Assembly (NCBI RefSeq): GCF_014251995.1
Contig: NZ_CP059205.1
Span: forward strand, 1 to 64,000
Length of the DNA: 64,000 nucleotides
Origin: Blattabacterium cuenoti
GTDB taxonomy: Bacteria > Bacteroidota > Bacteroidia > Flavobacteriales > Blattabacteriaceae
Direction: 5' to 3'
This document shows positions 11,045 through 62,688 of this stretch, one piece after another. The notes beneath the pieces are model-generated. The model had not been told where the DNA came from, did no database searches, and saw nothing but the letters and a program-made list of their open reading frames with translations. The position numbers and the translations under genes were made by a program. Numbering within the stretch: position 1 is the stretch's first letter; each line of letters starts with the position of its first letter.

Positions 11045-12295
11045 TTATATAAAACTATTCTGATTTGATGCATCTATTCTTACAAATATAAATAATAAAA
11101 CAGTAAAAGACCAAAGAGATGATCCTCCATAACTAAAAAAAGGCAAAACAATTCCTATTGTAGGAAAAATTCCCATAACCATCCCCAAATTAATAATAAA
11201 ATGAATTAAAATAATATTTCCCACTGAATATCCAAATACTCTTCCGAAAACATCTTTTTGTCTTTCAGATAAAAAATAAATACGACTAATAAAAAATAAA
11301 TAAAATATTATTAATATAATACATCCTAAAAAACCCCATTCTTCTCCTACTGTGCAAAAAATATAATCAGTGTGTTGTTCAGGAACAAATTTTCCTTTTG
11401 TAACAGTCCCTTTTTTATATCCTTTACCAAACAATTGTCCAGAACCAATAGCTGTTTTTGAATATAACAAATTATATCCTACATTATCTCGATATTTTCT
11501 ATCAAATTCGTTCTGAAATAGAATATTAATTCTATCTCTATGATGTTGTTTTAAAAAATTTTGAGAGAAAAATGAAGAAAAAATAGAAACAAAAGAAAAA
11601 CTTAGAAATAAAAATATATAAAAAAATAAATCATTTATTGATTTATTCCTTTTGTCTTTTATTTTCAAAAAAGAAAAAAAAACAAATAATATAAATAAAA
11701 CTAAAACTATTTTCCAAGGAGAAATATTAAAAGAAATAATAAATAGAAAAATCGAAAATAAAAAATAAAGTATAAAAGAAATAGATAATCCTTCTCTATA
11801 TAGAGTTAAAAAAAAAGAGGAAAAGATTATAGAAGAACCGGGGTCAGGTTGAATAAATATTAATACAGATGGAAATATTAATATAATAAATGCATATAAA
11901 AGTGTTTTTTTATCTTTTAAGTTGTTATCACGACTTATTAAATGAGCTATCATTAAAGATGTAGATATCTTAGCTAATTCAGAAGGTTGAAAACTAATAG
12001 GACCAAAAACATACCAAGACTTTGATCCATTTATGTTTTTTCCAAAAAAAAATACACCAATCAAAAGAAATAACGTTAACAAAAATAAAAATGGTGTAAA
12101 ATATTTATAGTGAATCGGTTTGAATAAAAAGATAAAAAATATTAAAAAAAAACTTAATAAAATCCATATTAATTGTTTTTCCGCTTTTTCAGAAGAAACG
12201 GAATACAAATTCATTAATCCAAAAAAAGTCATGAAAATATAAATTGTAACAATCCACCAATCTATATTTAATAATATTTTATTTCTTTTTATCAA
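11045..12295 (-). CDS. rodA: Rod shape-determining peptidoglycan polymerase RodA
   Basis: SEDS-family glycosyltransferase that polymerises lipid II with PBP2 during elongation. The 416-residue, about 10-helix membrane protein shows 'NGSKSWYVFG', 'FQPSELAK', 'QPDPGSS' and the SEDS signature near the C-terminus, 'GIVLPFFSYGGSS'. Length is close to other Bacteroidetes RodA proteins. Its start overlaps the end of mrdA by 17 bp, so it is translated from the same mRNA as the shape operon; it is the last gene before the tmRNA. Confidence 0.95.
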   Translation of the reverse strand: MIKRNKILLNIDWWIVTIYIFMTFFGLMNLYSVSSEKAEKQLIWILLSFFLIFFIFLFKPIHYKYFTPFLFLLTLFLLIGVFFFGKNINGSKSWYVFGPISFQPSELAKISTSLMIAHLISRDNNLKDKKTLLYAFIILIFPSVLIFIQPDPGSSIIFSSFFLTLYREGLSISFILYFLFSIFLFIISFNISPWKIVLVLFILFVFFSFLKIKDKRNKSINDLFFYIFLFLSFSFVSIFSSFFSQNFLKQHHRDRINILFQNEFDRKYRDNVGYNLLYSKTAIGSGQLFGKGYKKGTVTKGKFVPEQHTDYIFCTVGEEWGFLGCIILIIFYLFFISRIYFLSERQKDVFGRVFGYSVGNIILIHFIINLGMVMGIFPTIGIVLPFFSYGGSSLWSFTVLLFIFVRIDASNQNSFI

Positions 12296-57641: not shown

Positions 57642-58862
57642 ATGAATTTACACGAATACCAAGGTAGAGAAATATTGAACTCTTTTTCAATTTCAGTTCC
57701 ATATGGAATACTTTCTTCTTCTCCAGAAGAGGCTGTAGAAGCAGCAAAAATTATTTTTCAAAAAACTGGAAAAAAATCTTTGATAATAAAAGCTCAAATA
57801 CATGCAGGTGGACGTGGTAAATCTGGTGGTATTCAATCTGCAAAAAGTTTAGATGAAGTTTATGAAAAATCAAAAAATATACTAGGAAAATTTTTAGTAA
57901 CTCCACAAACCTCAAAAAAAGGAGAATTAGTTAAAAAAATTTTGTTATCAGAAGATATTTATTTTTACGAAAAAAATCCAGTTGAGTATTATTTATCAAT
58001 ATTTGTTAATCGAGATATAGAAAAAAATATCATTCTTTATTCTAAAGAAGGAGGAGTTAATATAGAAGATATTTCAAAAAATAGTCCAGAAAAAGTATAC
58101 ACAGAAAAAATAGATCCAATATTAGGATTACAATTATTTCAAACTAGAAAAATTGCTTTTAATTTGGGAATAGATAATAATTCATTAAAAAATTTTAGTT
58201 CTTTTTTAATTTCCGTTTATTCAGCTTATAAAAATTGTGATGCTTTATTATTTGAAATAAATCCTTTAATAAAAACATTTGACAATAAAATAATTCCTGT
58301 AGACATAAAGGTTGTATTGGACGATAATTCGTTGTTCCGTCAGAAAAAATATTTCATTAATAATATTAATAATAATCAAGAACAAAAAGGTTTATCTCTT
58401 GAAAAAGAAGCTAATGAAGCTAATTTAAACTTTCTAAAATTAGAAGGAAATGTAGGATGTATGGTAAATGGTGCAGGATTAGCTATGGCTACTATGGATA
58501 TGATTAAATTTTGTGGGGGAGATCCAGCAAATTTCCTAGATATAGGAGGATCTGCTGATAAAAAACGTGTAGAAAAAGCTTTTTCCATTCTTTTAAAAGA
58601 TAAATATGTTAAAATAATATTGGTTAATATATTTGGAGGAATAGTCCGTTGTGATACAGTAGCAAAAGGAATTATTAATTCATATTATAAAATTAATAAG
58701 GACAATATTAAAAATATTCCGGTAATTATTCGTTTACAAGGAACAAATGAAAAAACAGCGAAAAAAATTCTTCAGGAAAGCCTACTTCCTATTTATTTTA
58801 CTGAGACTTTAGAAGATGCTTCTAATAAAATTAAAGACCTTTTGAAGGTAGTAAAAAGATAA
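57642..58862 (+). CDS. sucC: Succinate--CoA ligase beta subunit
   Basis: ATP-grasp subunit of succinyl-CoA synthetase, the TCA step after 2-oxoglutarate dehydrogenase. The 406-residue product has the N-terminal 'MNLHEYQGREIL', the ATP-grasp 'IIKAQIHAGGRGKSGGI', the metal/nucleotide site 'LLFEINPL', and the C-terminal CoA-ligase 'GNVGCMVNGAGLAMATMD' and 'GGDPANFLDIGG'. It is complete. sucD is not adjacent; dnaX follows 15 bp later. Confidence 0.97.
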   Translation: MNLHEYQGREILNSFSISVPYGILSSSPEEAVEAAKIIFQKTGKKSLIIKAQIHAGGRGKSGGIQSAKSLDEVYEKSKNILGKFLVTPQTSKKGELVKKILLSEDIYFYEKNPVEYYLSIFVNRDIEKNIILYSKEGGVNIEDISKNSPEKVYTEKIDPILGLQLFQTRKIAFNLGIDNNSLKNFSSFLISVYSAYKNCDALLFEINPLIKTFDNKIIPVDIKVVLDDNSLFRQKKYFINNINNNQEQKGLSLEKEANEANLNFLKLEGNVGCMVNGAGLAMATMDMIKFCGGDPANFLDIGGSADKKRVEKAFSILLKDKYVKIILVNIFGGIVRCDTVAKGIINSYYKINKDNIKNIPVIIRLQGTNEKTAKKILQESLLPIYFTETLEDASNKIKDLLKVVKR

Positions 58863-58877
58863 TATGGATATTTATTT

Positions 58878-60425
58878 ATGAAAAAATTTTTTTATGAAAA
58901 AATTGCTTTATCTAATAAATATAAACCAATTAAATGGAATGAATTAATAGGACAAGAAAAAATTTCTATTTCTTTAAAAAATGCAATAGAAAATAATTTG
59001 TTATCTCAAGTTATTCTTTTTCTAGGACCAAAAGGGGTAGGGAAAAATGTGTGTGCACATATTTTAGCAAATGAATTAAATTCTTTTTATGATGAAAAAA
59101 AAGATTTTTCTTCTAACATATTTGAAATTAATGGAGTATTTAATTTTTCTTTAAAATGGATTTATAAAATAATTAATCAATCTAGATTACTTCCAAAAAA
59201 TGGAAAATATAATATATTTATTATTAATAATCTACAAAATTTCAATCAAGAAATTTTGAATTTATTTTTCCATTTTATAGAAGAAAAAAATCCACATATA
59301 TTATTTATTTTTTGTGTAGTAGAAGAAAAAATAGTTCCAGAATTTATTCTTCCATATTGTCAAATTTTTGAGTTTGAAAATATTTCTGTAAAAAAAATTT
59401 TTTTTCATCTAAAAATGATTTCGGAAAAGGAAAACATAAAAATAGAAAATGAATCTTTATTAATTCTTTCTCAACAAGCTAAAGGATCACTCAAAAAAGG
59501 AATTAATCTATTTGATAAACTAATATCAATTAATGGAAAAGAAATATCCAAAGAGTTTATAATAAATAAACTAAATATTTTTAATATAAAATACTATTTT
59601 GAAATAGTAAATCATATTTTAAATGAAAATATTAGCAAAATATTAATTCTATTAAATAAAATATTACATCAAAAGAATAATTATTCAAATTTTTTATTTG
59701 GATTAACTAAACATTTTAGAGATTTATTTTTATCTAAAAATTATGAAACAATTTCTATTTTAAAATTTAAAAAAGAAATAATCCAATCTTATATTAATCA
59801 GTCTAAAAAAATTCCCTTATTTTTTTTAATTCATGCTTTAAATGTTTGTCATCATTTAGAAAACGAATACAGGTTTTATAAAGAAAATTTTAGATTAACA
59901 ATAGAAATAAACTTAATTCAATTATCATATTTCTTTTCTATTAATAAAAAACAAAATAATCCTAATAATAAAACTAGGAAAATAGAAGAAATAAATCAAG
60001 AAAAAAAATTTAGCACTGTTCAAGAAAATGAAAAAATTCATTTTTTGAAAAAAAATTGGATCAAGTTTATTCAAGAATTTTCAGAAAATATGAACACTGA
60101 AAAAATAAGTTCTATTTATTTAGATTTCCTAAAAAAGGAAACACAATTTCAAATTATAAAAAATGAAATATTAATAATAATTCCTTGCAAATTAAATGAT
60201 AAAATTTTTTTTTTAATTCAAAAAAATTTTGAGAAATTTTTTCAGAAAAAACTAAATAATCCAAATTTTGGATTTAAAATCATAAAGAAAAATATTAAAG
60301 AATCCCAAATAGAAAAATATAATTTTTTGTATCAGAAAAATAAATTAATAGAGACATTAATAAAGCGATTAGATTTAAAAATACCTTTTTCCGGTCATAA
60401 TAATAATGATAATTATTATAATTAA
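58878..60425 (+). CDS. dnaX: DNA polymerase III clamp-loader subunit DnaX, ATPase site degenerate
   Basis: The 515-residue protein follows DnaX in order: 'NKYKPIKWNELIGQEKI' (the YRPxxF..VVGQ start), an AAA+ domain (about 1-215), a lid and a C-terminal oligomerisation part. Key ATPase residues are missing. Walker A reads GPKGVGKN (50-57, Asn57 for Ser/Thr), Walker B reads IINN (N117-N118 for Asp-Glu), the SRC arginine finger is PYC (Y160), and the sensor-2 Arg is Lys206 in GSLKK. The Cys-rich zinc segment is also absent. It may be a dead scaffold, with ATP hydrolysis by other clamp-loader subunits, or a pseudogene in progress. HolB (delta prime) is the alternative, but the N-terminus is DnaX-like. 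Confidence 0.8.
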   Translation: MKKFFYEKIALSNKYKPIKWNELIGQEKISISLKNAIENNLLSQVILFLGPKGVGKNVCAHILANELNSFYDEKKDFSSNIFEINGVFNFSLKWIYKIINQSRLLPKNGKYNIFIINNLQNFNQEILNLFFHFIEEKNPHILFIFCVVEEKIVPEFILPYCQIFEFENISVKKIFFHLKMISEKENIKIENESLLILSQQAKGSLKKGINLFDKLISINGKEISKEFIINKLNIFNIKYYFEIVNHILNENISKILILLNKILHQKNNYSNFLFGLTKHFRDLFLSKNYETISILKFKKEIIQSYINQSKKIPLFFLIHALNVCHHLENEYRFYKENFRLTIEINLIQLSYFFSINKKQNNPNNKTRKIEEINQEKKFSTVQENEKIHFLKKNWIKFIQEFSENMNTEKISSIYLDFLKKETQFQIIKNEILIIIPCKLNDKIFFLIQKNFEKFFQKKLNNPNFGFKIIKKNIKESQIEKYNFLYQKNKLIETLIKRLDLKIPFSGHNNNDNYYN

Positions 60426-60549: not shown

Positions 60550-62688
60550 ATGATTCATTATTACTCATCAAACAGTAGAAAAAAATTCTTTTCGTTTTCT
60601 GCTTATTCAGCAGATGAAGATATCGAAAATGATAATAGTTCTTCTACTTCTTCTTACGGACCTGGATCTTCTGAAGGTAGTGGAACTAGTTCTGGTGGTG
60701 GATACTATGGAGGAACTTCAATAAGAAGCAAAACTCCTATTTTAGATAATTTTGGAAGAGATTTAAATGCTATAGCAATGGAAGGGAAGTTAGATCCTTT
60801 AGTCGGAAGGGATAAAGAAGTAGAACGAGTTTCTCAAATTTTGAGTAGAAGAAAAAAAAATAATCCTTTATTAGTAGGAGAACCAGGAGTTGGAAAATCA
60901 GCTATTGCTGAAGGACTTGCTCTTCGTATTGTTCAAAAAAAAGTTTCTAGGGCTTTGTATAATAAAAGAGTAATTGTATTAGATTTAGCAAGCTTAGTTG
61001 CCGGAACTAAATATAGAGGACAATTCGAAGAAAGAATGAAAGCAATTATAAACGAATCAGAAAAAAATACTGGATTAATACTTTTTATAGACGAGATTCA
61101 TACAATGATTGGAGCTGGAGGAACGACAGGGTCATTAGATGCTTCTAACATATTCAAACCTGCTTTAGCAAGAGGATATATTCAATGTATTGGGGCTACT
61201 ACACTTAATGAGTATCGACAATATATAGAGAAAGACGGAGCTTTAGAAAGAAGATTTCAAAAAATTATAGTACATCCCTCTTCTGAAGAAGAAACTATAG
61301 AAATTTTGAAAGAAATAAAAGGAAAATATGAGAATCATCATAATGTTCTTTACACAGAAGAAGCTATAAAGGCTTGTGTAAACCTTACTGTACGATATAT
61401 TGTAGATCGATATTTACCAGACAAAGCTATTGATGCTTTAGATGAAGCAGGATCTCGTGTACACATAAAAAACATAAAAGTTCCTCAAGAAATAATAATT
61501 TTAGAAAAAGAATTAGAAAATGTACGTAAAGAAAAATCTAAAGTTGTAAAAAGTCAAAAGTATGAAGAAGCTGCACGTTTTCGTGATACAGAAAAACGTA
61601 TAGAAAAACAATTAATAAAAGCTCAAAAAAACTGGGAAAAATCTTCTAAAGAAAATAAAGAAATTGTATCCGAAGAAAATATTGAAGAAGTAGTCTCCAT
61701 GATGAGTGAAGTCCCAGTAAAAAGAATAGCTCAAGCTGAAATGAGGAAGTTAAATAAAATGGTAAATATACTAAAAGAAAAAATAATAGGACAAAATGAA
61801 GCAGTAGAAAAAATAGTAAAAGCAGTTCAAAGAAATAGAACTGGATTAAAAGATCCTAACTCTCCCATAGGTTCCTTTATTTTTTTAGGACAAACAGGAG
61901 TTGGAAAAACTTATTTAGCTAAAGTTTTTTCTAAAGAATTATTTGACTCAGAAGAGTCATTAGTTCGTATAGATATGAGTGAATATATGGAAAAATTTTC
62001 TGTTTCTAGATTAATAGGAGCTCCTCCAGGTTATGTAGGTTATGAAGAAGGAGGTCAATTAACAGAAATTATACGGCGTAAACCTTATTCTGTAATATTA
62101 TTGGATGAAATTGAAAAAGCACATCATGAAGTATTTAATATATTATTGCAAATATTAGATTACGGAAGTATAACAGACAGTGTTGGAAGGAAAATAAATT
62201 TTAAAAATACTATAATTATCTTTACTTCAAATGCAGGAACACAACAACTAAAAGAATTTGGTAGAGGAATTGGATTTTACACTAAATCAAGAAAATCAAA
62301 TGATTATGTTAAAAATATTCTTGAGCAATCTTTAAAAAAGACTTTTTCTCCGGAATTTTTAAATAGAATAGACGACGTTATCATTTTTAACTCTTTAACA
62401 CGAAAAGATATTTCTAAAATAACTTCTATAGAATTAGAAAAAATAATAATCCATGTATCTAATTTAGGATATCAATTAAATTTGTATCCTGAAGTACAGA
62501 AATTTGTTCAAGAAAAAGGATTCGATCATGAATATGGAGCTCGTCCTTTAAAAAAGGTAATAGAAAAATTTATTAAGAATCCTATATCAGAATGCATAAT
62601 AAATGAAAAATTAAAAAAAGGTGATATAATCTCATTAAGAATGAACAAAGAAAACAATAAAGTGGAAACATTTATTCATAATAAATAA
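60550..62688 (+). CDS. clpC: ATP-dependent Clp protease unfoldase ClpC (AAA+), without N-domain
   Basis: AAA+ unfoldase that feeds ClpP. The 712-residue product has both AAA modules: D1 Walker A GEPGVGKS (110-117) with LFIDEIHT, and D2 Walker A GQTGVGKT (447-454) with LLDEIEKA. The UVR-like middle region (about 330-370) and an IGF-like ClpP-docking loop (GIGF, about 573-576) are also present. Bacteroidetes ClpC is about 840-850 residues because of an N-terminal repeat domain; here it is absent, and the protein starts with a Ser/Gly-rich stretch (about 20-60). No N-domain coding is found in the 124 bp upstream. Confidence 0.93.
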   Translation: MIHYYSSNSRKKFFSFSAYSADEDIENDNSSSTSSYGPGSSEGSGTSSGGGYYGGTSIRSKTPILDNFGRDLNAIAMEGKLDPLVGRDKEVERVSQILSRRKKNNPLLVGEPGVGKSAIAEGLALRIVQKKVSRALYNKRVIVLDLASLVAGTKYRGQFEERMKAIINESEKNTGLILFIDEIHTMIGAGGTTGSLDASNIFKPALARGYIQCIGATTLNEYRQYIEKDGALERRFQKIIVHPSSEEETIEILKEIKGKYENHHNVLYTEEAIKACVNLTVRYIVDRYLPDKAIDALDEAGSRVHIKNIKVPQEIIILEKELENVRKEKSKVVKSQKYEEAARFRDTEKRIEKQLIKAQKNWEKSSKENKEIVSEENIEEVVSMMSEVPVKRIAQAEMRKLNKMVNILKEKIIGQNEAVEKIVKAVQRNRTGLKDPNSPIGSFIFLGQTGVGKTYLAKVFSKELFDSEESLVRIDMSEYMEKFSVSRLIGAPPGYVGYEEGGQLTEIIRRKPYSVILLDEIEKAHHEVFNILLQILDYGSITDSVGRKINFKNTIIIFTSNAGTQQLKEFGRGIGFYTKSRKSNDYVKNILEQSLKKTFSPEFLNRIDDVIIFNSLTRKDISKITSIELEKIIIHVSNLGYQLNLYPEVQKFVQEKGFDHEYGARPLKKVIEKFIKNPISECIINEKLKKGDIISLRMNKENNKVETFIHNK

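Follow-up and report, generated by a model that had tools for sequence, protein, structure and literature searches.

Clamp loaders are regarded as indispensable, with DnaX as their ATP-driven motor, and the delta' subunit (HolB) of Escherichia coli is a clamp-loader subunit that naturally lacks ATPase activity. The present analysis concerns the dnaX gene at positions 58878-60425 of a 64,000-base window of the Blattabacterium cuenoti genome (contig NZ_CP059205.1, positions 1 to 64,000), the product of which is predicted to be an ATPase-dead DnaX. Taking the whole genus into account we lean, with little more than even confidence, towards the view that ATP-driven clamp loading is defunct in Blattabacterium, a symbiont of cockroaches, and that DnaX persists there as a structural protein without catalytic function. 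The protein resembles E. coli delta' in having a clamp-loader AAA+ fold without ATPase, and about half of the genus retains the SRC arginine finger. It differs from delta' in being a dnaX product by descent, in keeping the P-loop lysine and in having no ATPase partner to stimulate.

Among endosymbionts, Portiera of the whitefly Bemisia tabaci has lost dnaX, dnaN, holA, holB and dnaQ (PMC5322561) and is, like Blattabacterium, a lineage dispensing with clamp and loader. In Portiera, however, the genes were lost in one branch, whereas in Blattabacterium an open, presumably ATPase-dead dnaX has outlived delta, delta' and the clamp contact of the polymerase alpha subunit across the genus. The DNA polymerase III (Pol III) of Walczuchella monophlebidarum (PMC3971599) belongs to the same family and a similar lifestyle, with dnaX likewise beside sucC; the same-family genome G049 differs from Blattabacterium in that both the ATPase motifs and the clamp-binding motif QxxLF are intact. 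Blattabacterium dnaX has been entered simply as "present" (PMC3971599), while no dnaN was found in strain Bge (PMC2768785) and the Periplaneta japonica symbiont was noted to have a dnaN pseudogene (PMC6039017). The entry "dnaX present" in endosymbiont gene tables is not equivalent to a working clamp loader. A genus-wide ATPase-dead DnaX outlasting delta, delta' and the alpha clamp motif was not found in the open-access papers searched.

The features of the gene are as follows.

58878..60425, + strand: dnaX orthologue, 515 amino acids, DNA polymerase III gamma/tau, predicted to be ATPase-dead (profiles, gene order, AlphaFold model)
58905..59543, + strand: AAA+ ATPase region with the lid (residues 10-222), catalytic residues lost, fold retained according to the predicted model (motif alignment, predicted model)
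59025..59048, + strand: Walker A, GPKGVGK-N, G50 to K56 followed by N57 in place of Thr/Ser (sequence)
59226..59231, + strand: Walker B acids replaced by N117-N118 in I115-I116-N117-N118 (motif alignment)
59352..59360, + strand: SRC arginine-finger motif replaced by P159-Y160-C161, a lineage-specific loss (motif alignment)
59484..59495, + strand: sensor 2, G203-S204-L205-K206, arginine lost (motif alignment)
59544..59927, + strand: collar domain (domain III), residues 223-350 (kept in G038 despite the lost ATPase domain)
60030..60392, + strand: tau-type C-terminal tail, residues 385-505 (homology to flavobacterial DnaX tails)

The window protein retains none of the four motifs of a functional DnaX motor, namely Walker A GxxGxGK[TS], Walker B DE, the sensor-2 arginine (GS/GA-x-R-D) and SRC, nor were delta and delta' partners found encoded. 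The substitutions N57 (codon 59046-59048), N117-N118, P-Y-C (Y160) and K206, which an earlier note made from the sequence alone had listed, are real and correctly numbered in the alignment. The N-terminal sequence of E. coli DnaX served only for column numbering; it agrees with the PDB chain over the displayed part. The absence of ATP hydrolysis, which the same note had predicted, is well supported at the level of sequence, catalytic residues being lost in 46 of 46 genus proteins and the motifs intact in all 32 scorable relatives outside the genus.

Our sample comprised 49 Blattabacterium genomes, 46 of which have a DnaX that retains the AAA+ part. While the Walker A lysine is present in 46/46 of these proteins, the residue following it is Asn in 41, Thr/Ser in four and His in one. 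At Walker B the aspartate was found once and the glutamate seven times, and the DE pair never; the sensor-2 arginine is likewise absent from all 46. The SRC finger has its arginine in 27/46 and is complete in 22/46. Outside the genus, all 32 scorable relatives (five from the same family and 27 from the order) have GK[TS], DE, SRC and the sensor-2 arginine. Judging by this contrast, the loss of the Walker A Thr/Ser, the DE pair and the sensor-2 arginine is therefore old and genus-wide, and thus broader than had been claimed, while the P-Y-C finger is, by the same alignment, a product of the source genome's own lineage.

That the four sites reflect an error of sequencing or assembly, a possibility which had also been raised, can practically be dismissed. 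Substitutions of the same type are seen again in the 46 sibling DnaX genes from separately assembled genomes, which excludes error at the shared, genus-wide sites, and no point in its favour was found; P-Y-C itself occurs in the window protein only. The missing zinc-binding cysteine region, by contrast, has to be withdrawn as evidence: since several DnaX proteins of Flavobacteriales and of the same family are fully intact without a zinc-Cys loop, its absence carries no weight and was rejected as a lesion.

Profiles and gene order identify the window gene as the genuine Blattabacterium dnaX orthologue. Its neighbours are sucC (57642-58862) on one side and a clpC-like gene (60550-62688) on the other, and because sister genera with intact DnaX have the same sucC-dnaX order (G049, G050, G054, G058) the gene is dnaX by descent. 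A search of the whole 628,453-base genome with the TIGR02397 profile returned only one true DnaX match, the open reading frame 58878-60425, which is the best profile match although it scores below the curated cut-offs (197-199 bits against 250 for TIGR02397; 276 bits against 685 for NF011531, PRK14971). Compared with bacterial DnaX as represented by these two profiles, the protein shares locus order, sequence, the tau-type tail and, according to the model, the AAA+/lid/collar fold; it differs in the lost Walker A Thr/Ser, DE pair and sensor-2 arginine, in the scores below cut-off and in lacking delta and delta' for a pentamer. The possibility that the gene is holB was rejected (27 bits to the HolB profile TIGR00678 against 199 to TIGR02397).

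If another protein served as the motor, it would have to be HolA/HolB, a second dnaX or some other AAA+ protein, the first two of which the earlier note had proposed. None of these emerged from whole-genome profile searches of the 49 genomes. In the 628,453-base genome the TIGR02397 search revealed no second dnaX, its remaining matches being short P-loop ones in apparent RuvB and ClpB/ClpC genes, and no RarA-like substitute was among the profile matches. With no supporting point found, a replacement motor appears very improbable.

Genes for the partner subunits delta (holA) and delta' (holB) were detected in none of the 49 genus genomes with curated profiles, the matches being dnaX itself or short P-loop-type stretches elsewhere, and HolA and HolB profiles built from sister genera gave the same negative result in these genomes. 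These negatives come from profile searches, and the assemblies searched are 92-99% complete. Since no positive genome was included in the search with the family-built HolA model, the holA negative leans on the curated profile; this profile does detect holA in six sister-genus genomes, some of only 273-345 kb, which makes the absence from Blattabacterium credible. Although holA lies beside trxB in three of the four sister genomes read, tblastn found no match to a holA remnant in the nine stretches near trxB that were searched, including the trxB-like surroundings in the window genome. A mirror image was observed in two genomes of the same family, G055 and G059 (273-285 kb), which keep holA and a HolB-like gene while dnaX was undetected.

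Pol III alpha (DnaE) is well conserved and intact in 49/49 genus genomes. Its internal clamp-binding motif QxxLF, situated before the OB fold, is nevertheless deleted in every member of the genus, with well aligned flanks. Outgroups keep the motif, most cleanly G093, G104, G077, G050, G049 and G052; the forms in relatives include QVSLF, QFDMF, QASLF and QCSLF, with weaker forms in the smallest sister genomes. Just past the lost motif, DnaE of the source genome (G000:C1:342670-345801) reads STHYLDDY where its siblings have SAHPLDDY. Such unusual changes in DnaE together with a long branch mark the source lineage as fast-evolving.

The clamp gene dnaN was recognised in 41/49 genomes, often weakly. 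In the other eight it has been cleanly deleted from the syntenic place, where the neighbouring genes retain their order around a gap of 170-265 bases (measured in seven of the eight). These eight genomes form one clade in the DnaE tree, and six of them still carry dnaX.

Taken together, the dead ATPase, the absent delta and delta', the lost alpha contact and the eroding dnaN lead to the conclusion that the ATP-driven clamp-loading cycle is probably gone. Very slow loading may be tolerated, as the earlier note had also suggested, but the deletion of the alpha motif, the loss of dnaN in eight genomes and that of dnaX in others point, at the gene level, to cells no longer dependent on ATP-driven clamp loading. 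Since most strains keep DnaX despite the lost motor, partners and alpha motif, the protein probably has a different, non-motor job. We infer a scaffold role, the simplest form of which would be a tau-like scaffold for alpha. The presumably folded AAA+ body may still bind nucleotide or phosphate via the conserved P-loop lysine. Collar and tau-type tail would mediate oligomerisation and tether Pol III alpha, perhaps also the helicase, to the fork, and DnaE would replicate the small chromosome at a slow pace, a loaded clamp contributing little or nothing. The fuller proposal, that the genus replicates its chromosomes of about 0.5-0.64 Mb with alpha uncoupled from an ATP-loaded clamp and with a DnaX turned ATPase-free scaffold that persists even without dnaN, is put forward tentatively and at somewhat less than even confidence. 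The genus represents a natural series in which the motor is dead while the partners are lost, followed by the clamp and then by the motor gene, a series that reveals which components of the replicase can be dispensed with earliest and makes the ATPase-independent roles of tau testable.

The strongest rival is that DnaX is a decaying relic, without important function once delta, delta' and the contact of alpha with the clamp had been lost, and eroding slowly to deletion under weak residual selection. Its strength derives from the losses of dnaX and the raised rates in one clade. In G024, the sister of the source genome, dnaX is deleted while dnaN is kept, and a remnant of the dnaX start lies within about 200 bases between sucC and clpC (L057, about 11209-11417). 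G029 has lost dnaX, leaving about 850 non-coding bases, and G038 has lost the N-terminal half with the ATPase domain while keeping collar and tail. The drift of the Walker B, SRC and sensor-2 motifs would also fit a relic. On the other hand, dnaX frames of about 460-540 amino acids are open in most genomes of a deep radiation. In the six dnaN-less genomes that carry the gene the mean identity is 41%, and five have open frames of 459-492 amino acids, the sixth (G008) having a frame of 386 amino acids and its tail shifted into a different one. Were selection absent, 300 substitutions should have left about 19 stops per dnaX and 120 substitutions about 10; none was observed in the five open frames.

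The ratio of nonsynonymous to synonymous change (dN/dS; NG86, close pairs) likewise speaks against a relic, being mostly 0.2-0.4 for dnaX, 0.12-0.26 for dnaE and 0.2-0.4 for dnaN, values that are rough because NG86 counts too little synonymous change where genes are this AT-rich. In most pairs dnaX is thus under purifying selection. The ATPase part of dnaX has ratios of about 0.2-0.5 between most close relatives, similar to collar and tail, and the P-loop lysine and glycines, among other residues, are invariant in the genus. In view of these frames and rates we regard the relic explanation as rather unlikely.

Several observations nevertheless weigh against a structural role as well. The ratio for dnaX is roughly double the dnaE value, with a maximum of 0.9 for one pair within the clade that lacks dnaN, and three genomes lack the whole gene or its ATPase half; the raised ratios and the losses in G024 and G029 indicate that in some lineages dnaX has a weak or dispensable function. 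The expectation of a tail more conserved than the ATPase domain had to be dropped since the rates are similar, and the most conserved 20-residue block of DnaX is the P-loop block, of which a pure tail scaffold has no need. The idea that selection on dnaX is relaxed only where dnaN is lost was also abandoned, and no such link is claimed, because dnaE dN/dS rises in that clade too.

The conservation of the P-loop suggests that nucleotide or phosphate binding may still stabilise the AAA+ body. It would also fit a non-hydrolysing clamp handler, in which homo-oligomeric DnaX binds nucleotide and holds or opens the beta ring for passive, slow loading. The presence of dnaN in 41/49 genomes under purifying selection agrees with such a function, as does the predicted fold, which resembles clamp-bound E. 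coli subunits. Yet delta, the clamp-opening wrench, is gone and alpha has no motif for clamp use. Taking furthermore into account that dnaX outlasts dnaN in six genomes and dnaN outlasts dnaX in G024, clamp handling by DnaX seems improbable, and the non-catalytic structural role remains the reading we prefer.

The AlphaFold model of the window protein (mean pLDDT 77) predicts the fold of a clamp-loader subunit with AAA+, lid and collar domains. Over residues 3-360, which the comparison covered, it matches E. coli clamp-loader subunits with Z about 27 over about 350 residues; one such match is 8var_C (VIA-align Z 27.6, 352 residues, root-mean-square deviation 3.6). The tail is homologous to the tau tails of flavobacteria (hhalign probability 96%, E 4e-9, 108 columns).

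The linker before the tail has its own peculiarities. In six free-living Flavobacteriales (L106, L109, L118, L121, L127, L129) a run of A9-A11 in the dnaX linker lies at the end of a frame of 368-407 amino acids, and in most of the readable ones coding goes on in another frame beyond the poly-A, which suggests that gamma and tau may be made there by slippage at the poly-A tract. An A11 run occurs at the same linker place, near residue 366-371, with the tail out of frame in three Blattabacterium genomes, G048 (L018), G021 (L022) and G004 (L047); these may be either split genes or slippage-corrected genes. The dnaX of G008 (L044) is frameshifted as well, without an A11 run. In G035 (L007) the DnaX tail contains an in-frame tandem repeat of about six copies of the nine-residue unit EIVKENSNA.
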